Source of the DNA: a virus
Direction: 5' to 3' (one strand)
DNA length: 64,000 nucleotides
IMG/VR virus record: IMGVR_UViG_3300009314_000008
Location: 1 to 64,000 of that record
Both the position numbers and the translations under genes were made by a program. Position 1 is the stretch's first letter; every line of letters begins with the position of its first letter. This document shows positions 4,037 to 58,600 of the stretch, one piece after another. Under the pieces are notes generated by a model. It was not told where the DNA came from. It worked only from the letters and a program-made list of their open reading frames with translations, and made no database searches.

Positions 4037-4798
4037 ATGGAATGTCCTTCGATCATTAAGGTCGCACTATCCAAAAGACTTAAAAAAGATTTAATTATTC
4101 CCAAGGGGACGATCTTTCGCGACATTAGACCAGGAACAACTGTCAAATACATTAGTCCCGGCCATTATGATTCAATTTTTGGACTAACAAAAGATACCTA
4201 CGGTTCTATAATGTATTCGTTTGATAACAATATTGACACAAAACAGAAACGTTTATTAAATGAATATTTCGAGAATATTAACAGTATGTCTAAAACAGCC
4301 AGACCAAGTAAAATAAAGGCACTATATAACATCATGAGAACCAGACAATATCTTCCATCTCTTGACAAAATAGATTTTGTTAAATTCCCAGACAAAAATA
4401 TTTTTGTCAGAGAAGATATTAAACCGATTACGCAGTTCCCCAAAAGAAATACTAAATCGAAATTGTTGGAGATGCTTGAAGGCTCTGCTCATGAGGGATT
4501 TCATCAATTAGGTGTTCATAAGGATGTTATCTCAATCAAAGAACTTCAAAGACTTGGGTTTAAGAGATCTATTGGACTTCCTGTCCCGGGCGAGTTCGTT
4601 TTATCTCCCTCATGGAGACTGGGTAAACTGCATGTTCGTAAATTAAATGACTTATTTCTTATCCATAAAGATAATATTGCCCCGCAAAACTTGATAGATA
4701 CTATAAAACATAATGCTATTGATGTTCCTGCTGGCATCTATGCTTATTGGCTGAAAGGGATAAAAGAAATAGCCACCAATAGTAAGGAGATCAAATGA
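4037..4798 (+). CDS. Tagged protein inserted between the two beta' segments, 253 aa
   Basis: It starts directly after the beta stop (TAA ATG) and overlaps the next ORF by ATGA, so it is translationally coupled inside the RNAP operon. The N-terminus MECPSIIKVA is the leader shared by many minus-strand virion-cluster proteins. The rest is basic and soluble, with no catalytic motif I recognise. It interrupts what is continuous beta' sequence in bacteria, exactly where the clamp region continues in the next ORF. It could be an RNAP accessory or assembly factor, or unrelated cargo inserted into an ancestral beta-beta' fusion. The tag suggests a virion link (inference). Function unknown. Confidence 0.8.
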   Translation: MECPSIIKVALSKRLKKDLIIPKGTIFRDIRPGTTVKYISPGHYDSIFGLTKDTYGSIMYSFDNNIDTKQKRLLNEYFENINSMSKTARPSKIKALYNIMRTRQYLPSLDKIDFVKFPDKNIFVREDIKPITQFPKRNTKSKLLEMLEGSAHEGFHQLGVHKDVISIKELQRLGFKRSIGLPVPGEFVLSPSWRLGKLHVRKLNDLFLIHKDNIAPQNLIDTIKHNAIDVPAGIYAYWLKGIKEIATNSKEIK

Positions 4799-5787
4799 GT
4801 GAAATACTCAACAGACTATCCGACATCGATATTGACGATAGGTTACCTCGCATTAAAAATAGAATAGAGCATGAGACTAGCCCCAGGATAATTGATAAGT
4901 TAGTTAAGGAGTTTAAGGTTTTAAATAATCTTAAGAAAGAGGGATTAACTCCATATGAGGCATTTACTAGAGAGATTGTGCCAGTTATCCCAGCTCAGTT
5001 CAGATCACCCATCGAACTTCCCAATGGCAACATTTTTAGCCCAGAGACTAATATACTGCTTCGAGATATTGCTCTCACAAATAATCTTGTTGATAAATCA
5101 AAAGAAATGGGGAAAGAACAGGAAGATAAAGCAACCAAAGAACTTTACAAAACCGTTGAGAAACTAATGGGATTCAAATCCCCCGAAGAGGGAAAGAATT
5201 TATTCGACACTATATCCGGTGGTAAGGCCCCCCCCAAGAGAGGATTCTTCCAAAGGCATATGGTTCGCAAACGTCAAAACATGTCAGGAGGGTCAGTGAT
5301 ATCCCCTGGTCCTCATTTAGATATTGATGAAGTCGAAATACCATATGATATTGGGCTAAATATTTTTGAACCATTTATTAAAAAAGAACTCACGGAACGT
5401 GGATATGCCAACGATGACATCGAAAAGGCAATATCAAAACGAACTTCATTAGCAAAAGACGCTCTTTTATCAGCCAGTAGGAACAGGCCTGTATTGATTA
5501 ACAGAGCCCCGTCTATTTGGCAAGGATCAGTAACTGCACATAAGCCAATATTTACAAATAAGAAGAACATTACTATCCCTAGCTTGCTTACGGCTTATCA
5601 GGGTGCGGATTTTGACGGTGATAGTTGCATATCTTTCATTCGTTTACGTTATAAGCAGAATGCTGATTTTTATATTGACATTAAGTCTGTTTTTAAATAC
5701 ATTGTCTCCATAATTAAAATATGGAGGAAGAAAATAAATGCGAATAGCAATAACAGACAACAGGCGAAACATAATAGTAAACGATGA
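4795..5787 (+). CDS. rpoC: RNA polymerase beta' middle segment with N-terminal half of a split intein
   Basis: Residues 1-276 are beta': LTPYEAFTREIVPVIPAQFR (bacterial VLPVLPPDLRP), KRGFFQRHMVRKRQNMSGGS (the LLGKRVDYSGRSV region), RPVLINRAPSIW (HPVLLNRAPT) and the catalytic loop ADFDGD at 271-276, which supplies the three Mg-binding aspartates. Directly after DFDGD the sequence leaves the family: residues 277-330 begin SCISFIRLRY, an intein N-terminal splice block with Ser277 or Cys278 as nucleophile. The ORF then stops after a Lys/Asn/Arg-rich tail. The continuation VSVHVPIS appears only in the ORF at 6811. Splicing of the two products would restore DFDGD-TVSVHVP. The N-terminal beta' part before this ORF is fused to beta. 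Confidence 0.92.
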   Translation: MSEILNRLSDIDIDDRLPRIKNRIEHETSPRIIDKLVKEFKVLNNLKKEGLTPYEAFTREIVPVIPAQFRSPIELPNGNIFSPETNILLRDIALTNNLVDKSKEMGKEQEDKATKELYKTVEKLMGFKSPEEGKNLFDTISGGKAPPKRGFFQRHMVRKRQNMSGGSVISPGPHLDIDEVEIPYDIGLNIFEPFIKKELTERGYANDDIEKAISKRTSLAKDALLSASRNRPVLINRAPSIWQGSVTAHKPIFTNKKNITIPSLLTAYQGADFDGDSCISFIRLRYKQNADFYIDIKSVFKYIVSIIKIWRKKINANSNNRQQAKHNSKR

Positions 5788-7323
5788 ATTTTCGAAACAG
5801 TCAATTATGGTTAAAGGTGGCAAAAAGGACACTTATTTGATGATCAAGCCCGCAAGTGATAATTCCGTTAAAACTATTGATATTGCAGACAATAATATCG
5901 TTTGCAATAGAGAATCAGGTCAATTTTTTGGCATGTTTATTGGAGACGGATGGGCAGATGCTAGCAACGGAAATCGTAAGGGGTATCATATTAGCATTGC
6001 TTCCATTCATGATGAGATTATAATCGCGTTCAGAACATATGCTAACAAATTTTTAAGGCAACACCTCGCATATACACCAGGGATACATCATAAAAATACC
6101 AAACACGATTATTGGGATAACCATACATCTATTCATGGCAAATTTACTATAGGAGTTCCTGCTAACACATGTTCAGCGATGCTTGCTACTTTTGGACATG
6201 GAGCAAAAAATAAAACATTTCCAGATAATTTATTAAATACCCCCAATGATTTCAGATGGGGGCTACTGTCTGGCTTGATGGATACAGATGGCACATTCAC
6301 ATATCGCCAACAAACAAAGAATGGTAAGCTATGCTACAATAAGTTGTCAACATATTCAACCGTCAGTATAAATCTCGCTAATAAAGTACAACTACTTTGC
6401 TTTACCCTCGGTATAAATGCTTCGATAACTACTACGATACACAAACATGATGATCGTCCTAATGTTACAGAATATTTAGTAGTATTAAGCGTTAAACATT
6501 TAACAGAATTGAGAGACAACCTATCTTTGATACTTCCATATAAAAAAGATATCCTCCATAAATTCACGATAGAAAATCAAGCATACCGCAAAGATATTGT
6601 TCCTTATGATAATGAAATTCATAAGTTAATAAAGTCTTTGATCCCCTACAAAGACAGATCAACAGTATTATCCCTTGCTCGCAATCGTGGCTATATCACC
6701 CGACAAACAATGGATAGATACTACTATGGTCCAATCAAAGAGTTGTACGACACCAAATTTAACTACAATCATCAATATGAAATCGTAAAGGAGATAATTG
6801 AGGTACCAATATGAATAATTTTTCCCTTTTTAATCGTTTTCTTCATAAGCTTTCATACAAGCTTTTTGGTAAAGGCAAAGTCTTTATCGGAGACATTGAC
6901 CACTACCCATATCCTATTGAAGTAAAAGGCAATTGCTTTGGCGGACAAAACATTAAATATGTAGCACTCCCTGGCCAAATGTGCACATCCATCACAAAAA
7001 ATGGCAAAATTGTTGAAGACGAGATCACATACTTTTCTATCCACAGAAATATCCCCCTCTATAAAGTTATTTATTCGGATGGTTCAGAGATACTAACATC
7101 TCCAGTCAACACAATACTTATCATGTCTGATGATAAATGGGAAAGGGCTAATCTTATAGATATGAGTATTGTGGGCAAAGTGTCTCCTGGGTTCTCGGAT
7201 GGTAGCATTATATACAAAAAAGTAGTTGAAGTTATAAATACCCACAAAAAAGTAGACATGTATGATGTTTCACTTAAGAATGAAACCACTTTTCTTACCG
7301 ATTCCGACATATTTGTCTTTGAT
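5623..7323 (+). mobile_element. Split intein with free-standing homing endonuclease gene
   Basis: The element runs from the codon after DFDGD (Ser277, or Cys278 at 5626) to the codon before Thr172 of the ORF at 6811. The N-half is about 53 residues and contains only the first splice block. The C-half is 171 residues with the rest: a block-B-like region (YSDGSEILTSPVNTILI) and a C-terminal region MYDVSLKNETTFLTDSDIF ending VFD before Thr. Between the halves lies a LAGLIDADG endonuclease gene, the layout of the atypically split inteins described from phage metagenomes, where IntN is short. The terminal Asp (in place of Asn), Phe before it (in place of His) and Asn in the block-B His position are non-canonical. 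Confidence 0.85.
5738..6814 (+). CDS. LAGLIDADG homing endonuclease, 358 aa
   Basis: This is a double-motif LAGLIDADG DNA endonuclease, expected to cut an intein-free copy of the beta' gene and drive homing. The first motif is FFGMFIGDGWAD (about residues 63-74) and the second is WGLLSGLMDTDG (174-185). Each ends in the acidic catalytic residue. Length is normal for a monomeric enzyme. The start lies 50 bases inside the preceding intein-N ORF in another frame and has a strong SD (GGAGGAAG). The stop overlaps the next start (ATGA). The gene is thus made as a separate protein rather than embedded in the intein. The first 50 residues may carry leftover intein sequence, which I cannot confirm. 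Confidence 0.9.
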   Translation: MRIAITDNRRNIIVNDEFSKQSIMVKGGKKDTYLMIKPASDNSVKTIDIADNNIVCNRESGQFFGMFIGDGWADASNGNRKGYHISIASIHDEIIIAFRTYANKFLRQHLAYTPGIHHKNTKHDYWDNHTSIHGKFTIGVPANTCSAMLATFGHGAKNKTFPDNLLNTPNDFRWGLLSGLMDTDGTFTYRQQTKNGKLCYNKLSTYSTVSINLANKVQLLCFTLGINASITTTIHKHDDRPNVTEYLVVLSVKHLTELRDNLSLILPYKKDILHKFTIENQAYRKDIVPYDNEIHKLIKSLIPYKDRSTVLSLARNRGYITRQTMDRYYYGPIKELYDTKFNYNHQYEIVKEIIEVPI

Positions 7324-9162
7324 ACTGTATCTGTCCATGTCCCAATTTCAGACAAGGCTGTCAAAAATGCTAAAAACATGATGCCTTCCATGTCTCTTAT
7401 AGAAGAAGAAACAGGCAAGATAAAAGCTTTCCCTGATCATTCCGCAGTGGCTGGACTTCATATACTGTCTAAAACAGAAGATGGGTTAAACAGGATTAAT
7501 TCAGTTCTTCCGGATGGACATAAGGCTACGGGTATACTGGACAAAAATAAAATCAAGAATATAATTAGCAATGTCGCCAAAGATAGTGAGCCAGTAGCCG
7601 CCAAAGTTGCTAATAAGCTAAGAGAGTTAGGCGATAATCATGCATATAAATCAGGGTTTTCCCTATCTTTATCAGATATTGAACCACTACAGGATATCAA
7701 ACAAGAGGCCATTGATAAGGCTATCAAAAAATTGAAGTATGTTGACCCTGGTGATTCAGTTAAGATAGAACAAATTTACCAGAGTATTATTGCCGATACA
7801 GACAAGAAGGTATTAGAGAGAATGAAAAACAGCAAGGGCAATATCCCTGTCATGTTGAATTCTCGAGCTCGAGGCAGCATGTCCCAATTCCGTGATATCA
7901 TAGTGTCACCTATCGCCATTGCCAGCAAAGAGATATCTAAAAAACCTATTAAACATGCTTATTCAGAAGGACTTTCTCCTGCAGAATATTGGAAGTCCGC
8001 ACATGGTGCTCGCAGAGGAGTTATTGGTCGCGCCCAGGAGACCGCGCTGCCCGGCGCCCTCGGTAAAGAATTACTATCCACTACAAATACCCTCATTACC
8101 CGGGGAGATAAACCTGATAGCCTCCGATCAATAGAGTTGCCTCTTGATAACACAGACGATGTTTTAGATCGATATACCGCCCGAGACATCAGAGATGATG
8201 ATAATAGGACAGTAGTCAAAAAAGATACTCTAATTAATCCGGATATTATACAAAAGCTGCTAAAAAAAGATATCAAGAATGTTAGAGTTTATACTCCTCT
8301 GGGTAGTAGTAACATTGACGGGACTATACCATCAGTTGCGTATGGGATTAATAAATATAAAGAGATCCCGGAAGATGGTTACCCAGTAGGTGCAATTAGT
8401 GCATTCGGATTAGTTGAGCCCCTGTATACTGGATCTATGCAGAAATTTCATACTGGGTCTGCTATAGAAGACCAAGCTGCAGGATATCCGAGACTCAAAC
8501 AATTACTCGAGCTTACTTCTTCAACAACTGAACGCAAAAAGCTTCCCAGTGAAGCAACACTGTCTACCGTCTCCGGCGAAGTTGAATCAATAGAGAATGA
8601 TGATCTTGGTGGACATAATGTCACCATAGGTGGTAAGAAACACTACGTCCTGCCTGCCAACAAACTGAAAATTAAGGTCGGGGATTCTGTCGGTAGAGGA
8701 GACTCTCTCTCAACGGGTCCTATCCAACCAAAGGACCTCGCTAAACTGAAATCTATAGAAAGTGCACAAAAGTACATGGTTGATGAAATTCGAAAAGTTA
8801 TTCCTGAATTGAGAAGAAGGAACGCTGAGGTCATAGTAGAGGGATTAACCAGATATGGCAAAATCATTGATCCGGGAGACACCGAATATTTACCAGGAGA
8901 CATTGATCTCGTCAATAACATTAATGCCAAAAATACCGAATTTGATGATAATCCAGCATCATTTGAATATCTTTTCCGCGGAGTAAATACACTCCCCCAG
9001 GAAACACAATCATGGCTATCTAAACTTAACTTCCGTAACCTCAAACGCGTATTTCAGAAGGATCTGATTACTGGTGCAGAAGCAGACATACATGGTCCCG
9101 AACCAATACCTGGACTAGCCTATGGGGTTGAATTCGGCAAGGGTAAGAAAGGTCACTATTAG
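6811..9162 (+). CDS. rpoC: C-terminal half of split intein fused to RNA polymerase beta' C-terminal segment
   Basis: Residues 1-171 are the intein C-half. Residues 172-783 are beta' from the second half of the catalytic motif (TVSVHVPIS, bacterial QMAVHVPL). Beta' landmarks follow: LNSRARGSMSQFRDIIVSP, the bridge-helix region YWKSAHGARRGVIGRAQETA (about 391-412), and the trigger-loop region GSMQKFHTGSAIEDQAAGYP (about 540-559; bacterial TMRTFHIGG). The C-terminus (PEPIPGLAYGVEFGKGKKGHY) matches the family's end region. The protein begins with a Met and its own coupled start, so no continuous beta' exists without trans-splicing. Spliced beta' downstream of the clamp would be about 888 residues, short compared with about 1400 in E. 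coli, as in other phage enzymes. A strong terminator follows. Confidence 0.93.
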   Translation: MNNFSLFNRFLHKLSYKLFGKGKVFIGDIDHYPYPIEVKGNCFGGQNIKYVALPGQMCTSITKNGKIVEDEITYFSIHRNIPLYKVIYSDGSEILTSPVNTILIMSDDKWERANLIDMSIVGKVSPGFSDGSIIYKKVVEVINTHKKVDMYDVSLKNETTFLTDSDIFVFDTVSVHVPISDKAVKNAKNMMPSMSLIEEETGKIKAFPDHSAVAGLHILSKTEDGLNRINSVLPDGHKATGILDKNKIKNIISNVAKDSEPVAAKVANKLRELGDNHAYKSGFSLSLSDIEPLQDIKQEAIDKAIKKLKYVDPGDSVKIEQIYQSIIADTDKKVLERMKNSKGNIPVMLNSRARGSMSQFRDIIVSPIAIASKEISKKPIKHAYSEGLSPAEYWKSAHGARRGVIGRAQETALPGALGKELLSTTNTLITRGDKPDSLRSIELPLDNTDDVLDRYTARDIRDDDNRTVVKKDTLINPDIIQKLLKKDIKNVRVYTPLGSSNIDGTIPSVAYGINKYKEIPEDGYPVGAISAFGLVEPLYTGSMQKFHTGSAIEDQAAGYPRLKQLLELTSSTTERKKLPSEATLSTVSGEVESIENDDLGGHNVTIGGKKHYVLPANKLKIKVGDSVGRGDSLSTGPIQPKDLAKLKSIESAQKYMVDEIRKVIPELRRRNAEVIVEGLTRYGKIIDPGDTEYLPGDIDLVNNINAKNTEFDDNPASFEYLFRGVNTLPQETQSWLSKLNFRNLKRVFQKDLITGAEADIHGPEPIPGLAYGVEFGKGKKGHY

Positions 9163-25495: not shown

Positions 25496-27211
25496 TTATT
25501 CTCCTTGTATATAGACACTATCACCATCATTGACGACAACTTCATTATTATTTCCTCGCGGTCTCGTGAAAACTATTTGGCTGGAATCCCTAACTGCCTG
25601 AATAAATTTCTGCACACCAGCCCGTATGATCATTTCCGCTACGATATTGCCACTATAGGCGGAACTTATCGTCCCTAACACTAATTCCCCGTCCACGACC
25701 ATCACTTCTTTTTTGTCCAGATAACTTCCCACGGATAACCCGTGCTCGCTTTTTATCCATCCATTACCTATATTAAAACCCTCACCTATAACATTCTCAA
25801 TATAACATCCATTTGCGGCCAAATATGTTCCGTTGATGTTATTATAAACTTCAATGTATGTATATGTTACGGAACATCCAGTATTGTCCTCTGTAATCGA
25901 TGCAACGGTGATAGTTGTCTCGTCTTCACCCTCGTCATAACCAACGGATATAACAGTATGTTCTCCATCGTCTGCACCCGCATCGGATAAAGTCAATTTC
26001 ATTCCCGCTTTCATTTTAGCAGTTTGGTCACCCGGGATAATAATATATTCATTATCTTTATCTGTTTCTACTCCTGTATGAGAAGCCGAGGTGATTGATT
26101 TAATAATGTTTACCCGGGTAGATTCTGCTTCTGTAGGGTCAATAATGTTTATTGTATTACCTTCTTCGAATCCTGAATAACTATTCATGTGTATAATCGT
26201 GTCAGTTAAGCCAATATCATTGAGGACATTCTCAATTTCCCCGATAACTTCAGATGATTGGGTAAAAGTCTCGTTCAATATATTGTCGGTGCTGATTTCT
26301 ATAAGATCAGTATCCTCGAAAGATATTTTATTATATTGATACTGATTAAATTCTTCTCCATCTGCAGATTCTATTGCATTGGACAATTCACCAGACTGTC
26401 TAAAGAGATAAAATGCTTTATTGGGCACGGCTGCTATGTTACCTTTGAGTTTACCCACAAAATTACTGGTTCTATTATATTCGCCATTGGCTATTATGGT
26501 ATTATAGAGAAGATCCCTTACCATCTCGTTGTCCCCAGCACCAACAATATCTATATTTCTAAGTCCTCGGAAATTCTCTCTAATGGATAGTTCAATCCCT
26601 GATTTTGACATCATATTTCGCGAATTTATAGAATTTCTTATTAAATTATAATATTCAGATACAGTATAATCGGATGTTCCGCTGGTCATTGCTTCGTGGA
26701 CGATTTTAACCAATTCTGCCGGAGCATCATCTACTTGTCCCAGTGTATTTTCTGCAATGCTCTCCCCTCTAGTATTTTTTACTCGAATATTCCCAATAGT
26801 GAAATAACCGTCAATCACGGTATAGACATTGGCATTCGTGGACAAAATAACATTATCAGTAAATTCAAATTCCTTATTTCCAGAATATAGTTTATTCCCC
26901 GCGGCTATTTCCCAAGAAATTGGTTCCGTAAAATATAATGTGATCATGCCCGTTGTTTCATTAGATTTTCCCTCTGTGACTAGAAAATTAGAGGCTAATC
27001 GCTTTATCTGATCAACCGTCATGTTTGAATAATTGGATAAATTTAGAGCATCTTTTTCTGTGTCAATCACATCGAGCGACATCTTGGTAGTTAAAATATA
27101 TACGAGAGGTACTATCAACAGCTCATAAATATTGCTGCCTTCTCGGATATCATAATTTTTTAAAGTTTCATCCTCTGCAAATGTCTCTCTTATAAATTCA
27201 ACAATATCCAT
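25496..27211 (-). CDS. Baseplate J-like wedge protein, 571 aa
   Basis: The order of features matches baseplate J/gp47 (Mu) and T4 gp6-type wedge proteins: an N-terminal segment MDIVEFIRETFAEDETLKNY, a helical LIVPLVYILTTKMS, then LASNFLVTEGKSNETTGMIT and a beta domain ending NTLGQVDDAPAELVKI. The helical middle includes YNLIRNSINSRNMMSKSGIE, LSIRENFRGLRNIDIVGAGD, followed by a long C-terminal beta region. It forms part of the hexameric baseplate. It is cotranscribed with the small baseplate gene upstream. Confidence 0.8.
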   Translation of the reverse strand: MDIVEFIRETFAEDETLKNYDIREGSNIYELLIVPLVYILTTKMSLDVIDTEKDALNLSNYSNMTVDQIKRLASNFLVTEGKSNETTGMITLYFTEPISWEIAAGNKLYSGNKEFEFTDNVILSTNANVYTVIDGYFTIGNIRVKNTRGESIAENTLGQVDDAPAELVKIVHEAMTSGTSDYTVSEYYNLIRNSINSRNMMSKSGIELSIRENFRGLRNIDIVGAGDNEMVRDLLYNTIIANGEYNRTSNFVGKLKGNIAAVPNKAFYLFRQSGELSNAIESADGEEFNQYQYNKISFEDTDLIEISTDNILNETFTQSSEVIGEIENVLNDIGLTDTIIHMNSYSGFEEGNTINIIDPTEAESTRVNIIKSITSASHTGVETDKDNEYIIIPGDQTAKMKAGMKLTLSDAGADDGEHTVISVGYDEGEDETTITVASITEDNTGCSVTYTYIEVYNNINGTYLAANGCYIENVIGEGFNIGNGWIKSEHGLSVGSYLDKKEVMVVDGELVLGTISSAYSGNIVAEMIIRAGVQKFIQAVRDSSQIVFTRPRGNNNEVVVNDGDSVYIQGE

Positions 27212-27219
27212 TATGTCTC

Positions 27220-27615
27220 CTATAATTCTAATTGTTGGACACCATCGAGGGTGACCAACTCAATACTCATATTCACCTGACCATTGGTGATAATTATGTC
27301 AAGATTTTTTAACTTTGCCCTTACAAATGTCTCAGTTGCCAGGAGTTCTTCATTTTCTTGTAACTTAAGCATTTTCTCTGAGGTTTTACTCAACGCTGAT
27401 ATAATGGTATTATGCATTAACCCAACATTTTTATTTGATAACTTTATGGTTTTATAGGCATCTAATAAGCCCCCACAATCACTTCCATATAATAATCTAC
27501 AAAACCTCTGTGACACAGAGACTTTACCGGTTGCCCGGGGACCATTGTTTATTATATCAAAACATGTTTCGGAATCCTGAGAACCTATATTGTCTAATAT
27601 TTTTAAGTCAATCAT
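27220..27615 (-). CDS. Small baseplate wedge-type protein, 131 aa
   Basis: Starts in an ATGA overlap with the upstream stop. Its size and position directly before baseplate J-like suit a gp46/W-like wedge component. The sequence RFCRLLYGSDCGGLLDAYKT is the kind of conserved core found in such proteins. The C-terminal strand VNMSIELVTLDGVQQLEL is beta-rich. Not recognised with certainty. Confidence 0.6.
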   Translation of the reverse strand: MIDLKILDNIGSQDSETCFDIINNGPRATGKVSVSQRFCRLLYGSDCGGLLDAYKTIKLSNKNVGLMHNTIISALSKTSEKMLKLQENEELLATETFVRAKLKNLDIIITNGQVNMSIELVTLDGVQQLEL

Positions 27616-29561
27616 GTAACCTCCGACATCATTCGAGACACTCCGGTAATTCTATTCAACTGTCTTTCGCCCTCATCCATTTTGATTTTAATGTCCGCTA
27701 CTTCTCTTACTAAGTCTGATCCTAATCCAACAATGTTCATCGCCGAGTCTATCGCTTGATTTACTGTCTTATCAAATGTTTCTTCTAACCTCTTGATAAT
27801 TTTACTGGCTGTTTTTTGTATAGACCTTAATAGATCCTTTGATATTTTTGGGTTGCCAAACGGGGGAATAATGCATTTTGCTATAATCATCCCTATTCCA
27901 CCACCAAATATTATAGCATTCCCCACACTTATTTTATTCAAAAAAATTTCAGCCTGCATAATCTTATTAAGCAGGGGCATTAAGCCCAGTTCCCGCAAAG
28001 AGCCAATAAGCCCATCGATATGAGGATCGGAATATCCCGTCAAATCCTTTATGCCCGTTTTTATCGATGTTAAATATGCTATTCTATCATCAATAAGTTG
28101 ATAGTAATAATCATAGGATGGTTGCCCCAACAGCATGTCCTTAACAATATGAAGCCCCAATCCAAGAATAAAATTGATAGTAAAGTTAGGTTCGTCACCA
28201 CCCCATTCAATATTATTCAGGATACTAACAGCCCTTGATAATTTTTCGGCATAATCTCTTTGTCCTTCTATTTTCTCCAAATCGTCAGCCACAATATTAT
28301 CAACATATCGCAATTTTCTGTAAATGTCATAATATTTTTTCCATGCTTGGATACGATCCCGCATATTCCGGATAGTACATTTATCCGGGATAAGGTTTTT
28401 TATGGCATTAGATTTATTCTTTATATTAGAAATAATATCTGCCCTCTCTTTTTCATGCTTTCCTATCGTTTCTTGATCAGTATAGTCGGGCATCAATTTG
28501 TTTAACTGCTGAAGAATTTCAACTCCAGACAATACTTGCGATTGGGCACCAAACACCGTTAAGTCTCTACAACTACCATTCAGTCCATCTACCCACTCAA
28601 GAATATTCGGGTCATTATCAAAGGTAAAGAATGGTGCTACTGCAGATTCACCCATATCCTTAAGCATTTTTTTTATATCTACCATTGATGATATAGATGG
28701 TGCTGTGACCGGTTCCTGATCATTAATCATTAATCGTACTTGTTCTGCAATCTTATCGGCATATATCACCATATCCCTTCCCGAATAATATCTCAATATC
28801 TCAAAATATGCTCTCAGGATACCAATAAACTCTCTTATAAGATAATTACCAGACGCATCTAACAGCGAGGAAAGATTATCGGACATAAATTTTTTTATAT
28901 CAATATCGGTTAATGCGGTTTTTATTGGCTTTTTTCTCTGTTTTTGGTATTCTTCGAGGTTTAATCCCTCTCCCAAAACTTCCTGTTCAAGTCTTTGTAC
29001 TATCACTTCTTTAATAATCTCTAAAACTTTGGAGCTTATCCCCGTAGATTCTAATGAGAGAATATCCTTGAGAGCTTGGGCTTTTTTTTTGGCTGATTTT
29101 AAATTCCCCAGGATTATACTGCTGTTTGAGGATAATATCATATTGTTGATAGCGGCTTTTATCTGTGGTCTGATATGATTACATATTTCTTCAAGTTTCT
29201 TATATGGTCCCTCCGACATTTTGGATTTATTTTCAATTAATCTCACGCGCGACTTAATCAAATTCAGTAGAGTTATCTCCCATGTGCATGATTCACGCAC
29301 TAAATTTGCTTGATATTGTGCAATATATAATGCCCACGACAATGGACTTATTGATCCGACAATATCATTAATTGCCTTTACAAATGCATCCCCAATATCG
29401 CCGAGATTCTCTATCGTATTCATTATCTCGCCAATGATTGGGCCTAGCCATAGCCCAAGAATCCCCAATCCAAGACTTACTATCCCAGATTTTTCTATCT
29501 GCTTTGATAGGTCTATAGCGTGTTTAAGATTAATAGCCTCTGATAGTGGGCAGTTCTGCAT
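27612..29561 (-). CDS. Large helical membrane-associated tail/virion protein, 649 aa
   Basis: Mostly alpha-helical with an N-terminal hydrophobic helix (IVSLGLGILGLWLGPIIGEI, about 30-49), another near residues 550-575 (AIIFGGGIGMIIAKCIIPPF), and long charged helical segments. The start MQNCPLSEA bears only a loose likeness to the shared leader and I do not count it. It sits between the sigma-like factor and the baseplate. Tail proteins with hydrophobic helices can be ejected with the tape measure to form a channel. That role is an inference. Confidence 0.55.
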   Translation of the reverse strand: MQNCPLSEAINLKHAIDLSKQIEKSGIVSLGLGILGLWLGPIIGEIMNTIENLGDIGDAFVKAINDIVGSISPLSWALYIAQYQANLVRESCTWEITLLNLIKSRVRLIENKSKMSEGPYKKLEEICNHIRPQIKAAINNMILSSNSSIILGNLKSAKKKAQALKDILSLESTGISSKVLEIIKEVIVQRLEQEVLGEGLNLEEYQKQRKKPIKTALTDIDIKKFMSDNLSSLLDASGNYLIREFIGILRAYFEILRYYSGRDMVIYADKIAEQVRLMINDQEPVTAPSISSMVDIKKMLKDMGESAVAPFFTFDNDPNILEWVDGLNGSCRDLTVFGAQSQVLSGVEILQQLNKLMPDYTDQETIGKHEKERADIISNIKNKSNAIKNLIPDKCTIRNMRDRIQAWKKYYDIYRKLRYVDNIVADDLEKIEGQRDYAEKLSRAVSILNNIEWGGDEPNFTINFILGLGLHIVKDMLLGQPSYDYYYQLIDDRIAYLTSIKTGIKDLTGYSDPHIDGLIGSLRELGLMPLLNKIMQAEIFLNKISVGNAIIFGGGIGMIIAKCIIPPFGNPKISKDLLRSIQKTASKIIKRLEETFDKTVNQAIDSAMNIVGLGSDLVREVADIKIKMDEGERQLNRITGVSRMMSEVT

Positions 29562-29562
29562 T

Positions 29563-30204
29563 TTATTTCAATTTCCTCATTACTGTAATAATGTTATCTT
29601 TTTTCCGCCTTATTGTAGATTCTGACACCCCTACCCGTTGAGCAATCTGCTCATTAGTTGACAATCTTGGATATCCGTGTATCCCATAAGTTAGTGCCAA
29701 TATTTTCTTTTCGTCAGAATTCTCAAGTTTATTATAAACCATATCCAAGAAGTTTTTTTCATTGAATGTGGGATCAAAAGCCATTGTGATATTGTCTGCA
29801 AAAGAGATATCTGATGTTAATTTTCTGCCAGTTTCCTCTGATAATCTTTTTATGTCGCCAATACCCATCTTTAATCTGTCAGCCATTTCCTCGTAGGTTG
29901 GCTTTCGTCCGACCTTCTCCTCAAAGGTAGCCACCTCGGATGTGAATTTGCCAAATTTCTGCGATCTTTCTTCAGGAATATATATAGGACTCGCTTCATT
30001 CACAAACCTATTCATCGATTTCATATAATTGCTCACATGGTTAGCCAATGGACCTTTTTGGGGATCAAAAGTATTGAGAGCTTCTCCGACTAATATTTCC
30101 GCCTGCAATCTTAACAGGTTTTTAGGTATTGTGCTCCCAGAAAATCTATTGACAGTTGAATTAATTAAAGGTTGATATTTCTTTAGGACATCATTATATT
30201 CCAT
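29563..30204 (-). CDS. Sigma-70-family RNA polymerase sigma factor, 213 aa
   Basis: Start at ATG 30204 (MEYNDVLKKYQ) with AAGGAGAT upstream. The sigma architecture is intact. Region 2 is YQPLINSTVNRF, ILVGEALNTFDPQKG and LANHVSNYMKSMNRF. Region 3 has the typical SEVATFEEKVGRKPTYEEMA followed by DRLKMGIGDIKRLSEET. Region 4 is LALTYGIHGYPRLSTNEQIA followed by QRVGVSESTIRRKKDNII, a helix-turn-helix. Sigma factors direct RNAP to promoters. The gene is buried in the baseplate operon. With the phage's own beta and beta' it would give the enzyme promoter specificity, or redirect host RNAP to late genes. Confidence 0.88.
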   Translation of the reverse strand: MEYNDVLKKYQPLINSTVNRFSGSTIPKNLLRLQAEILVGEALNTFDPQKGPLANHVSNYMKSMNRFVNEASPIYIPEERSQKFGKFTSEVATFEEKVGRKPTYEEMADRLKMGIGDIKRLSEETGRKLTSDISFADNITMAFDPTFNEKNFLDMVYNKLENSDEKKILALTYGIHGYPRLSTNEQIAQRVGVSESTIRRKKDNIITVMRKLK

Positions 30205-30205
30205 A

Positions 30206-32146
30206 TTATCTCCTTGGCAATATATCGTCTCCATATTCTTCTAGTAATTCCAGGATTTTATCTCGCCTCTCCGTTATAAATACCGTCCCATCTGGCACGA
30301 CAGTTGTTCCATGCTCTTCTAACGTTTTCACTTGATCTGTAACTTCTGATGCCATATCGGGTATAATTTTCTTATATTTCAATTCATATATACTCTTAGG
30401 GGTATTATCTCGTGTTATCAGTCCTCTTGAATACAAATATTCTCCAAATGTAATGATTTCTCGTTTACAATACCCATCTTTTTTAAATAAATCTTGATGA
30501 TTTGTTTTTATAGCATTAACGCTGTTTACTACCTCGGAGCCAGTTCTTTTTTCGCGTTTTCTCCTTTTTAGTAGTTTTAGATCATTCGAATGTTCTGTTA
30601 TGGGAATATAACCTATCATTCCCAAAATACCGGGAGAATATTCGCTTTCAACTACTTTGGCTGCAACCCCTTTAGAACCAGTAAGAATAGGATTGTAGCA
30701 ATAATCGTATATCTTATTAATATTTGTAAATACTTCCCTCTCCAGAAATGGATTGATCAAACCGATATCTGTCAGACTGGTTATTTTTCTGACATTAGTC
30801 ATCTCAATTTGTGTCCCGGTTTTTCCCGCAGACTGATCTATCATTATATTTACGCTGGATAATATTCCATAATAAACAGCATCCTGTGGTACATCATAGA
30901 CAATGCTCGGAAATCCCACTACTCCATAGGGGTGTAATTCTGGAAATGAACATTGCAGGATGTTCTGTGAATATCGTTTTTTCATAAATTCATAATCACA
31001 GAGGTTTTGCCAAACAATATTGCTTTGTTGTTCAGCAATTTCTTCAGGTTTTAGAATGTCTTCTCCAATTATTCTATTAAACAGATAACTCTTTATCTCA
31101 ATTGCTCCCCGTATCCCAAATTCATATTCTTCATCTGTCAGATTATACTTATTTTCCTTTAAATCCCCGGGCGATTCTCGACTGAAAAGATTATTATCGA
31201 ATATTTTATAGACATGGCGTAGTCGCGTTATGGGGGTGCTCCGGATATTGTCATTTAACAATTCTACATCATCACCGGCAATAAAGACATTACATTTGGG
31301 AGGAGCGACATTTAATATATCGGGCAGCAATACATATTTAGCCATCGATTTATCATTTGTTTGGATTTTTAGCCCAGACAGTATTTTCTCCACTCCCTTA
31401 TCATTATAGGCGGGACAACCAATGTTGATATAGCGGTATCCCACATGCATTAGTTTTCTCAAAATACCATCCAATGGTGTTTCATTGTTCAATATGACAT
31501 CCATATTGGTAGATTCCAGAAAGTTGGTCAACCCCTCCGCCCTATAAAATTCTTTAAACAAATCTTCATCAACATAAACATGATCGCGACTAATTTTCAG
31601 TCTCTTGTTGATATTTTTATAATAATATTCCCACGAATCCTTTAATAGGGATAAAACTTTATCAAAATAATCAACAACATTAAGTTTAACAGGATCTCCG
31701 AGATTAAATATCTGAAAAGCATTTTTTATAGCGTTGTTTATCACGGTTGTCCCCATATTTGCATCATCCATACCATAAAATTCATATGAACCAACTAATT
31801 GAAAAAAATTCTCGAACTCAAGAGCGGATAAATATTGAGATGGCAGATCGTTCAGATATTTATTCTGTCCAACGGCTAATATAGATCTCGTCCTAAGGTC
31901 TCTTTGCCTATTATAGGTAACACCCGTGGTTACACCGTCAAATAATAATCGGTAGACCTCTGAATCACAATCGTAATAGAATACCGTTATGATTGTACCG
32001 TCCTTGATCTCCGACAGTTTCCCCACTTGGGGCAAGGTAATTGTGGCTACACACAGATTATTCTCATGCATGGATATACTTATTTTCATCATTGGGACCT
32101 TTATTCCCTCCAAGTAGCAAACGGTATTCAGATCAACACCTCTCAT
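30206..32146 (-). CDS. Baseplate hub-type protein, 646 aa
   Basis: Start overlaps the previous stop by one base (TAATG). The N-terminal part is beta (VPMMKISISMHENNLCVATI), matching hub proteins of the gpD/gp27 kind that lie next to the tail tube initiator. The middle has alpha-helices (WEYYYKNINKRLKISRDHVY) and the C-terminal part has coiled or basic stretches (LLKRRKREKRTGSE) and a terminal helix. It is flanked by another baseplate gene and the sigma-like gene. It would form the central hub at the tail tip. The family is inferred from place and fold, not from a sure motif. Confidence 0.55.
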   Translation of the reverse strand: MRGVDLNTVCYLEGIKVPMMKISISMHENNLCVATITLPQVGKLSEIKDGTIITVFYYDCDSEVYRLLFDGVTTGVTYNRQRDLRTRSILAVGQNKYLNDLPSQYLSALEFENFFQLVGSYEFYGMDDANMGTTVINNAIKNAFQIFNLGDPVKLNVVDYFDKVLSLLKDSWEYYYKNINKRLKISRDHVYVDEDLFKEFYRAEGLTNFLESTNMDVILNNETPLDGILRKLMHVGYRYINIGCPAYNDKGVEKILSGLKIQTNDKSMAKYVLLPDILNVAPPKCNVFIAGDDVELLNDNIRSTPITRLRHVYKIFDNNLFSRESPGDLKENKYNLTDEEYEFGIRGAIEIKSYLFNRIIGEDILKPEEIAEQQSNIVWQNLCDYEFMKKRYSQNILQCSFPELHPYGVVGFPSIVYDVPQDAVYYGILSSVNIMIDQSAGKTGTQIEMTNVRKITSLTDIGLINPFLEREVFTNINKIYDYCYNPILTGSKGVAAKVVESEYSPGILGMIGYIPITEHSNDLKLLKRRKREKRTGSEVVNSVNAIKTNHQDLFKKDGYCKREIITFGEYLYSRGLITRDNTPKSIYELKYKKIIPDMASEVTDQVKTLEEHGTTVVPDGTVFITERRDKILELLEEYGDDILPRR

Positions 32147-33081
32147 TAATGCCCCCCCATGTCAGCATAATCACTTTTTACCAACATTCGTAGTTCTACT
32201 CTTGAGAATGTTTCCCCGGCCTTCACATTATCCGTTAAACTCATAATATAACCCGTGGCCACCCTGTTTTTATATACAATATGCACTTTCTGATCCCTAT
32301 ATAAATTCTTTACACTCCATTTTTCGCGATAATATTTATTAAATAGGTGCTTCCATGAATATTCAACACCTTCTACTATTACGCTCTCTTTTGTATCCGG
32401 TAATATTAAACCAAAAATATAGGTATCGGGATAACTCCCAAAACTAGTAATCCCCCCATATACACCTGTGAATTGATATTTTTCCAAGAAGTATTTATTG
32501 ATCGATTGTAGAGAGAACTCTCTCATTGGTTGTTCTTCTATGGGCTTATTACTCATAAATATAGATGCCTTATTATCCTCTCTTTGAACATTAGATATAT
32601 CAGCCTTATCAATATAATCTATTTCGCCAGCCAAGTTCTCCACCGGATTCCCCAAGGGAATCAGAGTAAACGAAAAATAAGATAAACCTGTATTGTTTGA
32701 CATGATAGACATATCAACCATATAACCATTTATCTGAATGCCTTTATATACGACTGATACATATGTATCCTTCCTTTGTGCAGACTTATCCTGAGACCCC
32801 AAACATACGCTGGCTCTCCAGAGGTTTTTATAATTCTCAATAAATTGCGTCTCCCATGTAGTATTTTTTGTGTCAATCACAATCCCACTAAATTTATATG
32901 GCTCTATGATCTTATTTTTAATGCCTATTTTATAATCATCATAATGATGATTGACCGCAATTTGTTCAGATCTTTTCTGGGTTACCGATGTTAATATAAA
33001 ATCAGATGAATTTGATCTACCCACCGATATTACTGCCCGCGGATAATTTCTTGTCTCTCCATCAGTGAATAATATTTCCAT
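32146..33081 (-). CDS. Baseplate/tail-tip protein, 311 aa
   Basis: Beta-rich protein directly after the tape measure gene, in the position of distal tail or hub-adaptor proteins. Visible landmarks are WETQFIENYKNLWRASVCLG, YMVDMSIMSNNTGLSYFSF (a gp53/DUF-like strand pattern) and YIFGLILPDTKESVIVEGVE. The octapeptide GSQDKSAQ comes from the 26-bp repeat. No enzymatic motif. Confidence 0.55.
   Translation of the reverse strand: MEILFTDGETRNYPRAVISVGRSNSSDFILTSVTQKRSEQIAVNHHYDDYKIGIKNKIIEPYKFSGIVIDTKNTTWETQFIENYKNLWRASVCLGSQDKSAQRKDTYVSVVYKGIQINGYMVDMSIMSNNTGLSYFSFTLIPLGNPVENLAGEIDYIDKADISNVQREDNKASIFMSNKPIEEQPMREFSLQSINKYFLEKYQFTGVYGGITSFGSYPDTYIFGLILPDTKESVIVEGVEYSWKHLFNKYYREKWSVKNLYRDQKVHIVYKNRVATGYIMSLTDNVKAGETFSRVELRMLVKSDYADMGGH
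32776..32801. repeat. 26-bp dispersed exact repeat, copy 2
   Basis: Partner of 10296-10321. Same phase, encoding GSQDKSAQ. Confidence 0.8.
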
Positions 33082-37682: not shown

Positions 37683-39725
37683 TCACACTATATAAATATA
37701 ATTGTTTATTCTGTTGACTGGATAATAATGCTTTATTTCAACCTTGTTATCGACTTGATCTCTATTTACCACATTTGCAGCAACTCCAATTACTTTAAAG
37801 TCAGCCAAACATTCTATTTCATTAACAAACTTATATCTGATAGTAGCTAGATCGTTATTCAATTTTTTGATATATCTCCTATTTTTAGCCGAATTAGTTG
37901 CTTCGTGGGAGATGCTATTATCTACCCCTTTTGCCACATGTGGTCTAAGGGTTGATCTAATAGCCTGAGCAACGCTGACAGTCACGATTACTATTGATAA
38001 CTCTTTTTTTTCAAGAATAGCCTGAGCGGTTGTTTTCTGATGATAAATACCAATAGGTGCCCCTTCCATTTCCTGGTGTAACATAAACCACCCAGAGTCT
38101 TTAATTGCCTCAAGTTGATTTATTGTGAAATAATTAATGGTAGGTAGCCAAGTAATCAAAGGAAGTGCATCATTAGTGAATACATAACCCAATATTTTTG
38201 AAGAGACATAACCGGCCACTATCACAGCAATATGATAACCAAATAGTTTTGTGTCTCCCATCATTGCATAATATGGACCACATAATACTACTCGCTGACT
38301 ATCATAGCCATTTGGAACAGTAACCGCTGTATCTGCATCAGTTTGAGGAGTATATCCACTATCACAGAATAGACTATCCTGTGGCCAGGATAATACTTCC
38401 GCAGAAAGGTCTCCAAAGGTACTACCATAATCTTTATTGACAGTAAATGTGTCATTCGAAGTATCAACAGCAATAACATCAGACTCAACGGTTATTCCGC
38501 CATAAGTTGCAGAAAATACCATTCCGGCTTTAATGTCTGCGGCCTCGCCAGCCCCTATTGTAACCACTGTTTTTGATCCATCTGATGCCGCCGCAATTTC
38601 AGAGATAGTAAATTCATCTCCATCTTCTCCATAGGTAAGTCCGTTGCCCCCGTTTACTACTTTTTCCGAAATAAATACCTGTTTCTCACGTTTATAGTCT
38701 GTTCCGGACTGTGTCTCTGCCCAGGTTTTAAATCCGCTCAAAACCGTTTCATTGTCTGTTAGGGGAACTATAAAGAATGCGGTTGATACCCCATTAATTG
38801 ACTCTTGGGCAGCAACCCAACTTGTATTAGCAGCCAATATCGTTGATAATGCGTCGGTCCCATCAACAGGAATAGCATAAATCCTAAATTGATTGACTCC
38901 ACCATTAGCGGCCAAATGTAAAAACGCACCAAAAGCCAGATTGCTGTCTGGGTCTTCTAGACTCTCCGATCCAAACTTATCCACGAGATCACCAACCGAT
39001 GTAATGGTATAAAGTCCGCTAATGTCTGTTTTCTGAACTATAATATCATAAAGGAGAACAGGACGTCTGACTTTCGGGGTATTCATGTTAGACCCAAGAT
39101 AATCATACCATATGCTATCATCCACACTGGCAGCCAATGCCCCTGTTACAACCTCAACAAGAGTAAACTGGCTATTGCCCACATCAATAGACAATATCTC
39201 GTAATACTTATCATCGTCTCCATGATAAAAACATTGCCCAACCTCTAATAGCGACATAAATTTTGTTGCGTTTGAGCCTCCAACCGTAACTATTTCACCC
39301 CCAGCATCCATAGTATAGGTTAAATTAGCGCCACCATAGTTTTTGCCAATCTGTCGCAAGAAATCAGTTGAGAGGAACGTTATGGTCGCAATGCCATCAT
39401 TATTATAATTTGTTTTACTGATAGTGGGGTTTGTGTTGAAATAATATGCTGTTGACATTTGAATAGCAGCAGGATCCTCTTCGCCAGCTTTTCTGATGAA
39501 CAATTTCATGTCACCGTTTGCCTGCATTTTCTCAGCATCATTTAATTTCATTTTATTGTCTTCTGTAGCGTCAATAGTCAGATCGCCTACCAATATCGGT
39601 CCATGATAAGTTTTTTTCGATACCCTCAATGGGACACCAACAACAACGGCCCCTCTCGTGGGCGCGACCAGGCTACTCCCTTGTATTTGATATAGTATGT
39701 TTGTAAATACACCATTTCTACTCAT
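37683..39725 (-). CDS. Contractile tail sheath protein, 680 aa
   Basis: Long sheath protein. The N-terminal VFTNILYQIQGSSLVAPTRG and VVVGVPLRVSKKTYHGPILV match sheath starts. The C-terminal third contains the conserved sheath fold: LITWLPTINYFTINQLEAIK, GWFMLHQEMEGAPIGIYHQK, VTVSVAQAIRSTLRPHVAKG and RYIKKLNNDLATIRYKFVNE with the terminal strands VEIKHYYPVNRINNYIYIV. An insertion domain (about 370-450) may decorate the surface. It identifies the phage as a myovirus. SD GGAGACG. A TTGACA box and AT-rich intergenic region lie upstream. Confidence 0.85.
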   Translation of the reverse strand: MSRNGVFTNILYQIQGSSLVAPTRGAVVVGVPLRVSKKTYHGPILVGDLTIDATEDNKMKLNDAEKMQANGDMKLFIRKAGEEDPAAIQMSTAYYFNTNPTISKTNYNNDGIATITFLSTDFLRQIGKNYGGANLTYTMDAGGEIVTVGGSNATKFMSLLEVGQCFYHGDDDKYYEILSIDVGNSQFTLVEVVTGALAASVDDSIWYDYLGSNMNTPKVRRPVLLYDIIVQKTDISGLYTITSVGDLVDKFGSESLEDPDSNLAFGAFLHLAANGGVNQFRIYAIPVDGTDALSTILAANTSWVAAQESINGVSTAFFIVPLTDNETVLSGFKTWAETQSGTDYKREKQVFISEKVVNGGNGLTYGEDGDEFTISEIAAASDGSKTVVTIGAGEAADIKAGMVFSATYGGITVESDVIAVDTSNDTFTVNKDYGSTFGDLSAEVLSWPQDSLFCDSGYTPQTDADTAVTVPNGYDSQRVVLCGPYYAMMGDTKLFGYHIAVIVAGYVSSKILGYVFTNDALPLITWLPTINYFTINQLEAIKDSGWFMLHQEMEGAPIGIYHQKTTAQAILEKKELSIVIVTVSVAQAIRSTLRPHVAKGVDNSISHEATNSAKNRRYIKKLNNDLATIRYKFVNEIECLADFKVIGVAANVVNRDQVDNKVEIKHYYPVNRINNYIYIV

Positions 39726-39775
39726 TTTCGTCTCCTTATCAAATTTGATTAATTACATATATTTTATCATTTATT

Positions 39776-39781
39776 TGTCAA
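39776..39781 (-). promoter_or_regulatory. TTGACA box upstream of sheath gene
   Basis: TTGACAAATAAATGATAAAA on the minus strand in the only clear intergenic gap of this region. No exact TATAAT lies at 16-18 bases (TATGTAAT is the closest). It resembles the boxes at 758, 45591 and 56418. Confidence 0.4.
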
Positions 39782-39793
39782 CTAATTTCTACA

Positions 39794-45514: not shown

Positions 45515-45590
45515 TGTCTTTACTCCTTTTTTTACAATGTTTTTATTATTCATACTATATGATGTTATGCTTGATAATTTTCTGATTATT

Positions 45591-45596
45591 TGTCAA
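45591..45596 (-). promoter_or_regulatory. TTGACA box upstream of scaffold/capsid group
   Basis: TTGACAAATAATCAGAAAAT on the minus strand in the gap between the protease gene and the 118-aa gene. No consensus -10 at 17 bases. It shares TTGACAAATAA with the box near 39776. Confidence 0.4.
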
Positions 45597-45601
45597 GCAA
45601 T

Positions 45602-47590
45602 TTATTTATCATATAGATTTTTCCACATCGATGCAATAATGCTATCTCTATCTTCTATAGGATATTGCGTTATATCCATCCCATTAAAATCCATTCCATT
45701 TTTTATTAACATATCAAGTTCGGCATGCTTCCCTACCACTCCCTTAAGTATTACTTTTATTGCTTTTCGAGTATGGGGATTAGCGGTAAGCCCAGCAGCA
45801 ATTCCAACCCCTCCAGGATTTTTGGCCACGAATTTTTCAACACCGCTGATATGTCTTCCCGATTTGGCTTTATTATAAACATGCCCAGCATATAAATAAG
45901 ATGCCACGGGCAGCCCAACCAAGGTAGCTATATTCGTATATTTAGCAGATGTCTTAACCATATTATTACCCATTTCTTCCCGCGAATAGTTAAATAAACG
46001 CGAAGCCACCTCGCTGCCGACAATGGCGGCTATCCAGAGTTTTGGGTTACCTTTTATATTTTTAACAAGCGGGACAAGGTGTTTTCCTGCTTTTGTTTTC
46101 GACAACATATAGGTAGCAGCGATGGTTCCTAATATTCCAGGTAAGGGCGATTTATGATTTTTGGGCGGATCTAAATATGCATTAATTTCATTTGCCCTCT
46201 TTACCATCACGATTCTCTTGATCATGCATGGTCTATAATATGACCTTTGCATTAAAAACGGTTTTATGATATCAAAAATATTGTTATTAATTTTATCTGG
46301 AGAGAAGGTTATTCCTGGTAAGCATTCCCCAGATGTTGGAATTCCCTCTATTGTATCCGGAATAACTATTTTCTGTCTATCATATTCATCTGCATCATCT
46401 TTTTTCCCCATTTGAATTAAGATAATCCTCTGAAATTCCCGTGGACGAGGGTATGCCCCCGCACTCAAGAATGTTGTCAGAATATCATCAATGGGATATT
46501 TTGCAATCTCACTTATTGTTCCCACCGGAAGATCCATTTCAGATGCTTTCAATTCCGGGACTATTTTTTCACCGATATAATTGTTAATCGCCATATGATC
46601 ATCACTTAATACTTGGCCTTCTACCTCTTTTTCAATATCTGCCTTCTTATCTTCTGCCCTCTTGTTCTCGGAGGCTTTTTCTATTTCAATTAATTCTTCT
46701 TCTGTTATTCTGCCAGAGTCATCTTTGCTAGCAACCTTCTGCAGGACATAACTGGATTTTTCAGCATTCGTTCCCACCTTACTTATATCGAAAAACTTAG
46801 GTCTCATATTGACCACAGAGACAACTATACCGGTTGAGGGCACCATTCTACCCCTCATGTACTTCATATGGTCGCAATATTTGTTCAATGTTGAGTGAAT
46901 CCCAACAGGACCTCTTCCGAGACTCTTCTTTTGTCCATCATCAGTTTCCTTGAATTCTTCGTCATTCAATTCAGTAATATATGACAAATCAACGCCATAC
47001 TTTTTGCCAATCGCCTTTATCTCATCAATATCGCCGGAAATAGATATTTTGATCATTTCATTTTCCGGAATCTTGTAGAATTCTTTCCATTTAGGATGGC
47101 ATACCCGACAAACATCATAAGGAACCCTCATGCCCATCGATGTCGGAATATGCTGGTGACTATCCAGCATCTGCTTCGTGTCCAAATCCTTCAGGGTATC
47201 CACCTCTGCAACTACCAGCACTCTGCCCATCATCTCATCCCATGTGGAGAAAATCACTCTACCGAACCCTTTGGCTGGGTCTTTATTCTCATGGCGATGA
47301 AAATAATGTGCCTTAAGGTAAGTTTTATACCCCCAATCATCCGTAGGATTACTTAGACTCATAGTTGGGAAGAAATCTGAATTACTATTTGCTCCCCAAC
47401 ACTCATCGGCAACCGCACTGATCAGCAAGAAGACCCTATTTTTTACCGGCGTTATGTTCGCCACAAACTCCTGAGCATCTTTGGGCATGTAATTGTAATT
47501 AGCCACTTTCTCCATGCCATAAAAATTAATCGGCTGGACAGTGGGGTTCCCATTCTTATCGTAAGATGGGAGGTCAATATATTTGATCAT
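45602..47590 (-). CDS. Prohead protease/scaffold fusion protein, 662 aa
   Basis: The N-terminal part matches phage prohead (capsid maturation) proteases: KAHYFHRHENKDPAKGFGRV (His near 95-100), then SMGMRVPYDVCRVC (Ser151, Cys161/164), a later KYCDHMKYMRG and the stretch VVNMRPKFFDISKVG. The middle is a helical scaffold-like region. The C-terminal 180 residues have hydrophobic helices (GILGTIAATYMLSKTKAG, ATLVGLPVASYLYAG). The usual protease is about 200-250 aa, so this is a large multidomain form, perhaps protease plus scaffold core. It would cut internal head proteins before DNA packaging. Confidence 0.75.
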   Translation of the reverse strand: MIKYIDLPSYDKNGNPTVQPINFYGMEKVANYNYMPKDAQEFVANITPVKNRVFLLISAVADECWGANSNSDFFPTMSLSNPTDDWGYKTYLKAHYFHRHENKDPAKGFGRVIFSTWDEMMGRVLVVAEVDTLKDLDTKQMLDSHQHIPTSMGMRVPYDVCRVCHPKWKEFYKIPENEMIKISISGDIDEIKAIGKKYGVDLSYITELNDEEFKETDDGQKKSLGRGPVGIHSTLNKYCDHMKYMRGRMVPSTGIVVSVVNMRPKFFDISKVGTNAEKSSYVLQKVASKDDSGRITEEELIEIEKASENKRAEDKKADIEKEVEGQVLSDDHMAINNYIGEKIVPELKASEMDLPVGTISEIAKYPIDDILTTFLSAGAYPRPREFQRIILIQMGKKDDADEYDRQKIVIPDTIEGIPTSGECLPGITFSPDKINNNIFDIIKPFLMQRSYYRPCMIKRIVMVKRANEINAYLDPPKNHKSPLPGILGTIAATYMLSKTKAGKHLVPLVKNIKGNPKLWIAAIVGSEVASRLFNYSREEMGNNMVKTSAKYTNIATLVGLPVASYLYAGHVYNKAKSGRHISGVEKFVAKNPGGVGIAAGLTANPHTRKAIKVILKGVVGKHAELDMLIKNGMDFNGMDITQYPIEDRDSIIASMWKNLYDK

Positions 47591-56369: not shown

Positions 56370-56417
56370 TCTTTCCTCCATTATTTAATCTTTACTTTTA
56401 ATTGACCATTGTTTTTT

Positions 56418-56423
56418 TGTCAA
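56418..56423 (-). promoter_or_regulatory. TTGACA box after terminase
   Basis: TTGACAAAAAAACAATGGTC on the minus strand in the gap downstream of the terminase gene, upstream of the small acidic gene. TAAAAG at 17 bases is a weak -10. Confidence 0.35.
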
Positions 56424-56424
56424 T

Positions 56425-58310: not shown

Positions 58311-58600
58311 TTCATTCTCCTCTTTATTATAGATATCAAATCGCTTGCATCTCTTTTTAATTTCTTAACCATCTTTATCTGCCTAGCCTTTTCAAATTTC
58401 TTTGCCTGTCTCATGTAGTTAACCTGATAAGGGATTGCCTTGACTTGTAGTTTTATTGATCTGACAGGGTAGTATCTTCTATATTTAGAAAGGTCGTTAA
58501 TAAAATTATGAGAGAATATTGCTTTAGTCATTGCTTTGGTAGACGCTCTCCCTAACAATGTTGAAGTTAAGGCTTCTTTAATTATCCCTGGACATCTCAC
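58307..58600 (-). CDS. Tagged basic protein, 97 aa
   Basis: MRCPGIIKEA leader. It is followed by a very basic helical body (KKFEKARQIKMVKKLKRDAS) with no hydrophobic segment. It could bind nucleic acid or act as a charged packaged protein. It overlaps the kinase-like gene start and the next gene by ATGA. Confidence 0.65.
   Translation of the reverse strand: MRCPGIIKEALTSTLLGRASTKAMTKAIFSHNFINDLSKYRRYYPVRSIKLQVKAIPYQVNYMRQAKKFEKARQIKMVKKLKRDASDLISIIKRRMK

Follow-up and report, generated by a model that had tools for sequence, protein, structure and literature searches.

A sigma-70-type gene conserved in the baseplate operon of tailed phages that encode their own RNA polymerase, and its probable role as a virion-carried specificity subunit

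Small sigma proteins that set promoter choice, such as T4 gp55 and the SPO1-type sigmas, act on the host core polymerase, and the phages that encode them have no beta and beta' subunits of their own. The phiKZ-type virion and non-virion RNA polymerases (Chimalliviridae) and the nvRNAP of phage AR9 are made of phage-encoded beta and beta' without alpha, and the role of sigma is filled in them by proteins that are not recognisable as sigma in sequence (gp68 and AR9 gp226). Virion-packaged phage polymerases are already known from phiKZ relatives, N4, and P23-45. According to published reviews, the phiKZ-type polymerases are without sigma homologues, and phages with a sigma are generally without a polymerase of their own (PMC7598289, PMC13282480). 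Full-size beta and beta' are also encoded by the metagenomic tailed phages described as mReC Caudovirales, a deep-branching multisubunit RNAP lineage, in a paper that does not mention sigma in its main text (Weinheimer and Aylward 2020, PMC7481178).

Among cultured phages, the beta subunits closest to that of the phage analysed here are encoded by Salmonella phage Arash (31% identity) and Vibrio phages D69, D148, and D181 (30%). Mass spectrometry of Arash virions detected Gp10, called a sigma factor and given one sentence in the paper, with 24 unique peptides, 100% coverage, and 467 spectra, as well as Gp206 (beta; 3516 spectra, the most of all proteins) and Gp216 (beta'; 1210 spectra); the second sigma of this phage, Gp196, is missing from the virion protein list (PMC10585845). 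The same table also includes many non-structural proteins and certain odd counts (e.g., a DNA primase with 2 unique peptides and 932 spectra), and its authors propose early use or carry-over for virion enzymes (PMC10585845).

The gene studied by us lies on the minus strand of a 64,000-nucleotide stretch of IMG/VR record IMGVR_UViG_3300009314_000008 (the window), which comes from a 78-kb phage genome fragment without close relatives. Its open frame runs from 30234 to 29563, and the ATG at 30204, giving a product of 213 aa, is the better start call because it is preceded by a Shine-Dalgarno sequence, AAGGAG (30215-30210), and lies 2 nt past the stop codon of the hub gene. The initial annotation ascribed regions 2, 3, and 4 of a sigma factor to this product, and the three could be confirmed by different means (Table 1). 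Region 4 with its helix-turn-helix was recognised by Pfam and sigma3 by fold, with a Pfam match slightly under the cut-off. Region 2, which did not match any Pfam region-2 model, was recognised by structure: in the AlphaFold2 model of the protein (mean pLDDT 82), which has sigma factors as its best PDB matches, the relevant part aligns with residues 376-446 of E. coli sigma70 (1sig) with a Z-score of 9.9 and 1.7 A over 69 residues, confirming at the level of a predicted structure the sigma2 fold of the sigma-70 family. Additionally, the protein matches PHROG 351 ('RNA polymerase sigma factor') with 2.2e-13, and the family profile, from which the protein itself was left out, gives it a score of 124.8 bits, as against 49.2 bits for E. 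coli RpoD. As compared to RpoD, it has the same order and fold of sigma2, sigma3, and sigma4, but is devoid of region 1.

The placement of the gene between two baseplate genes, also claimed initially, was right, because a protein of hub fold is encoded upstream, a member of a gp6-type wedge family three genes downstream, and the tail sheath in the same operon. A fold search with the hub gene product gave Z-scores of up to 14.5 to T4 gp27, Mu gp44, and VgrG, from a model that is weak overall (pLDDT 50); the relative of this protein in Arash, gp8, bears a lysozyme domain (Phage_lysozyme, 8.7e-26). Other members of the wedge family match PHROG 6 ('baseplate wedge subunit') at 9e-13 and 5e-17. The slot of the 649-aa protein directly downstream of sigma is likewise occupied by a gene, of variable size, in the relatives. 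The 131-aa protein was considered as a gp25-like one and rejected, its profile match of 6.6 bits being not significant. At the downstream end of the structural operon, a PAS-domain protein is encoded (10445-11188, minus strand; PF13426, 1.3e-7). Positions 58597-60444 (minus strand) encode an inorganic pyrophosphatase-like protein (PF18823, 1e-50) with a weak, sub-cut-off match to M91 peptidases, and the contig part past the window encodes a short-chain dehydrogenase/enoyl-ACP-reductase-like protein (L002:8625-9509, minus strand; 4e-20).

Table 1. Coordinates of the sigma gene, its predicted domains, neighbouring genes, and polymerase genes in the window
Feature	Position	Strand	Evidence
Sigma-70-type protein, 213 aa, virion-sigma clade	29563..30204	-	Pfam r4 and r3, PHROG 351, fold, family profile, Shine-Dalgarno
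Sigma2 (regions 2.1-2.4), predicted	29989..30198	-	structure match to 1sig; RpoD alignment
Sigma3, predicted	29827..29973	-	Sigma70_r3 23.7 bits (below cut-off of 25.3); phmmer to SigA; fold
Sigma4 with helix-turn-helix	29569..29760	-	Sigma70_r4 (PF04545) 30.9 bits (cut-off 24.1); fold
Baseplate hub protein (gp27/gp44/VgrG fold), directly upstream of sigma	30206..32146	-	fold search; cluster C3 6.9e-131
Tail/baseplate protein, same conserved block	32146..33081	-	family C7 8.2e-9
649-aa protein, directly downstream of sigma	27612..29561	-	gene order
131-aa protein at the slot of gp25-like family C2	27220..27615	-	position and size only
Baseplate wedge, gp6-type, third gene downstream of sigma	25496..27211	-	family C0 6e-64
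Tail sheath, farther up the same operon	37683..39725	-	PHROG 279 1.8e-5
RNA polymerase beta with flap-tip segment	797..4036	+	Pfam Rpb2_6 6.7e-52; alignment
Beta' N-terminal part, clamp-helix region (sigma2 dock)	4795..5787	+	Pfam Rpb1_2 9.6e-13; RpoC alignment
Beta' C-terminal part, preceded by intein-like stretch	6811..9162	+	Pfam Rpb1_5 6.1e-13; translations

Look-ups of IMG/VR by exact short peptides of the window sigma, beta, and sheath proteins found no relatives; these were obtained by alignment-based searches with sigma and then with beta. The query with three aligned sigmas gave 32 loci, and since a sample fetched by sigma could be biased, a second one was fetched by beta alone. Orthologues of the window sigma are encoded at the same locus by Arash (gp10; OQ632216) and D69 (gene 0011; OZ195729), which share with the window the neighbourhood of this gene and the same kind of beta and beta', and which have a second sigma gene outside this locus (gp196 in Arash, 0246 in D69). 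The sigma4 domains of the Arash and D69 proteins are shorter and more diverged than that of the window sigma, which is about 24% identical to Arash Gp10. In a 49-row tree, from which the sigma of locus L048 was excluded, a branch with a support of 100/100 separates 39 window-type sigmas from nine second sigmas and RpoD. The window sigma groups there with Arash Gp10, apart from the Gp196-type sigmas and RpoD, on a long branch of its own, the tree supporting its membership of the clade and not its internal position.

In the beta-first neighbourhoods with sigma, this gene always precedes the gp25-like gene by two positions and the wedge gene by three (14/14); three sigma-first loci (L041, L047, and L048) do not show this standard order. 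The conservation of the locus across the lineage, with the window gene placed likewise between hub and wedge, rules out a stray insertion of sigma into the operon. All 15 sigma-first contigs longer than 150 kb, Arash and D69 counted, encode both beta and beta', and all nine new beta-first contigs longer than 140 kb encode a window-type sigma, while shorter beta-first contigs often have none, as expected of fragments. The window sigma is thus a member of a clade that occupies a fixed locus in a lineage of myoviruses encoding beta and beta'. By encoding both a multisubunit polymerase and a sigma, this lineage departs from the split described in the reviews. It is possibly the same as, or neighbouring to, that of the mReC phages.

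Both beta and beta' genes, which the initial annotation had mentioned, were found in the window, and the lack of alpha noted there holds more widely: the alpha-subunit domain PF01193 is absent from 22/22 related records searched, this contig included. The polymerase thus resembles those of phiKZ-type phages and AR9 in its subunits, but differs from them in being accompanied by a true sigma-70-type gene. Alignment to the E. coli subunits indicates that the phage core retains both bacterial sigma docks, namely, the clamp-helix region of beta' and the flap-tip segment of beta. While in Arash and D69 beta is fused to the N-terminal part of beta', the window encodes a separate beta and has an intein-like break in beta'. 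This intein-like insertion splits the beta' gene (4795-9162, plus strand) inside the catalytic motif, between GADFDGD, shortly past which the N-terminal part ends, and TVSVHVP. The two parts of beta' are in one frame, and a separate LAGLIDADG endonuclease ORF (5738-6814) lies between them in another frame, which resembles split-intein 'fractured gene' arrangements. In two other IMG/VR records (G013 and G016), beta and beta' are seemingly fused, because single long open frames, of 2511 and 1985 aa, hold both sets of domains.

In our opinion, with a probability of roughly three in four, the window sigma provides a phage-encoded multisubunit holoenzyme with its specificity subunit and is carried by the virion, late synthesis being followed by use as the next infection begins. 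As a member of the baseplate operon, it would be synthesised late, packaged together with beta and beta', and delivered to the cell with the genome, where the phage core and sigma would start transcription without the host sigma; in phiKZ-type phages, too, transcription is started by a packaged version of the polymerase. Its docking on the phage core could involve the clamp helices of beta' and the flap tip of beta, both of which are retained. Since the Arash orthologue is present in virions with the polymerase, what these phages bring to the next cell seems to be a transcription starter prepared in advance. Spectra per aa, which we computed from the published Arash counts, are 2.00 for Gp10, 2.31 for Gp206, and 2.00 for Gp216, and 0.67, 0.98, and 0.66 for the baseplate-region proteins gp8 (hub), gp13, and gp14, respectively, all of them being rough measures, as the source table lists many non-structural proteins and gives very high counts for some proteins of few peptides. 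The central idea of the initial annotation, that of a late-made and packaged sigma of a phage holoenzyme, is strongly supported by these relatives, through the Arash virions and the linkage to the polymerase in every long contig; in the window phage itself packaging would follow by analogy with the orthologue, and we infer likewise the use of sigma at infection start and the promoter recognised by it. Possible carry-over in the Arash preparation, the odd spectral counts in the Arash table, the low identity to Gp10, the origin of the window in a 78-kb fragment that has no close relatives, and the replacement of -10 and -35 contact residues count against this reading.

These residues had been proposed initially as a check on the sigma function. 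In the alignment to RpoD, the window sigma has His at the position of Tyr430, Asn at that of Trp433, and Tyr at that of Trp434, and so does not preserve the -10 aromatics of the housekeeping-type (group 1/2) sigmas, whereas Arg441 is kept. The -35 contacts Arg584, Glu585, Arg588, and Gln589 are mostly lost across the family, the window protein having Arg at 588. By contrast, the second sigmas of Gp196 type retain the Tyr and mostly retain the Trp residues. The outcome of the check is therefore mixed: the canonical residues are replaced family-wide, but the replacement is uniform (His for Tyr430 in 37/39 members of the clade). Trp433 is replaced by Asn in 29/39, and Arg441 is retained in 38/39. 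The uniform replacement in the aligned sequences suggests altered specificity, i.e., recognition of a different promoter, rather than decay, and host-type promoters are not likely to be the targets of the window sigma, given the loss of canonical contacts.

It is improbable that the sigma, either injected or made late, redirects the host core in the manner of T4 gp55, the phage core using another factor. Such a role would be in line with that of most known phage sigma factors (PMC7598289) and with the family profile, which still matches RpoD over regions 2-4. However, the canonical contact residues are unlike those of a host sigma, phage beta and beta' accompany sigma in every long contig, and the Arash virions hold the three proteins at similar scaled counts. 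We assign a somewhat lower likelihood still to a late sigma of the ordinary kind, whose synthesis and use both fall late in infection and which would be present in virions as a carry-over of an abundant protein. Although the gene sits in a late operon and carry-over of virion enzymes was raised by the Arash authors (PMC10585845), the other phage sigma, Gp196, was not carried into the virion list, and the gene is kept inside the structural block in 14/14 beta-first neighbourhoods. Least probable is a former sigma turned into a baseplate part located in the tail near the hub and without a role in transcription, since, despite the fixed position of its gene between those of hub and wedge, its finding in virions, and the loss of canonical DNA-contact residues, it is strictly linked with the polymerase subunits, retains sigma2, sigma3, and sigma4 and, nearly always, Arg441 (38/39), and follows beta and beta' in scaled spectra, unlike most of its baseplate neighbours.

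Three intergenic regions (39726-39793, 45554-45601, and 56376-56424) had been suggested as test promoters for the window sigma. These long gaps before structural genes do carry TTGACAAA (at 39774, 45589, and 56416, minus strand), but no tie of this sequence to the window sigma was found: promoter-like sites in that region of the window number 66 overall, as compared to 61.5 +/- 7.8 in shuffles, which is no excess. A near-perfect canonical sigma70 promoter-like site, TTGACC-16-TATAAT, is present at 50421-50394 (minus strand).

A promoter-like, extended -10 motif, TG(G/T)TATAAG(TAA), exemplified by Arash 46629-46640 (minus strand), is common to two phages of different hosts, Arash (W01) and D69 (W02). 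The sites of its TG(G/T)TATAAG form are on a single strand in both (18/18 and 16/16, respectively), namely, the minus strand, which is that of non-structural genes, and are followed within 90 nt by a ribosome-binding site and ATG in 17/18 and 12/16 cases. A -35-like TCAATAA box, spotted by eye, is held at some of these sites only. The 12-base form, TGKTATAAGTAA, occurs in 15/29 related records, on one strand per record, with a reversed control of nearly zero; in the window contig, the Arash/D69 motif is not present in exact form. Among records longer than 140 kb searched for both, the motif and a second, non-virion sigma occurred together in 14/14, and neither occurred in 10/10. An assignment of the motif to the virion sigma, although tempting, was not kept, because its distribution matches exactly that of the second sigma; as a single clade could produce both patterns, either sigma may read it.

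The regions upstream of Arash genes comprise ones with TGGTATAAG and ones with CTAAAATA. Motifs of the CTAAAATA type, although in small counts, are often upstream of structural genes in Arash (at 128120, 137660, 139441, 142729, and 173537) and D69 (several sites), which is suggestive of a candidate class of late promoters. Like other structural genes, the Arash operons gp204-206 and gp216 have such a motif upstream, and its presence before these polymerase operons fits a late synthesis of the packaged polymerase.

The literature searched by us holds no account of a conserved hub-sigma-wedge locus, of a strict linkage of such a sigma to beta and beta', or of a division into virion and non-virion sigmas. 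As a tentative extension, which we regard as rather unlikely in its entirety, the whole lineage of tailed phages might package a complete sigma-70-type holoenzyme of beta, beta', and sigma without alpha; the sigma gene might be kept between those of hub and wedge because loading and ejection of sigma, or of the holoenzyme, go together with the tail machinery, and the second, non-packaged sigma might then take over in a two-sigma cascade on the phage's own polymerase. The lineage is directly testable, as it has a cultured member, Arash. An alpha-less, compact, sigma-dependent polymerase of this kind would offer a test of the minimal bacterial-type initiation machine and of the origin of sigma use.
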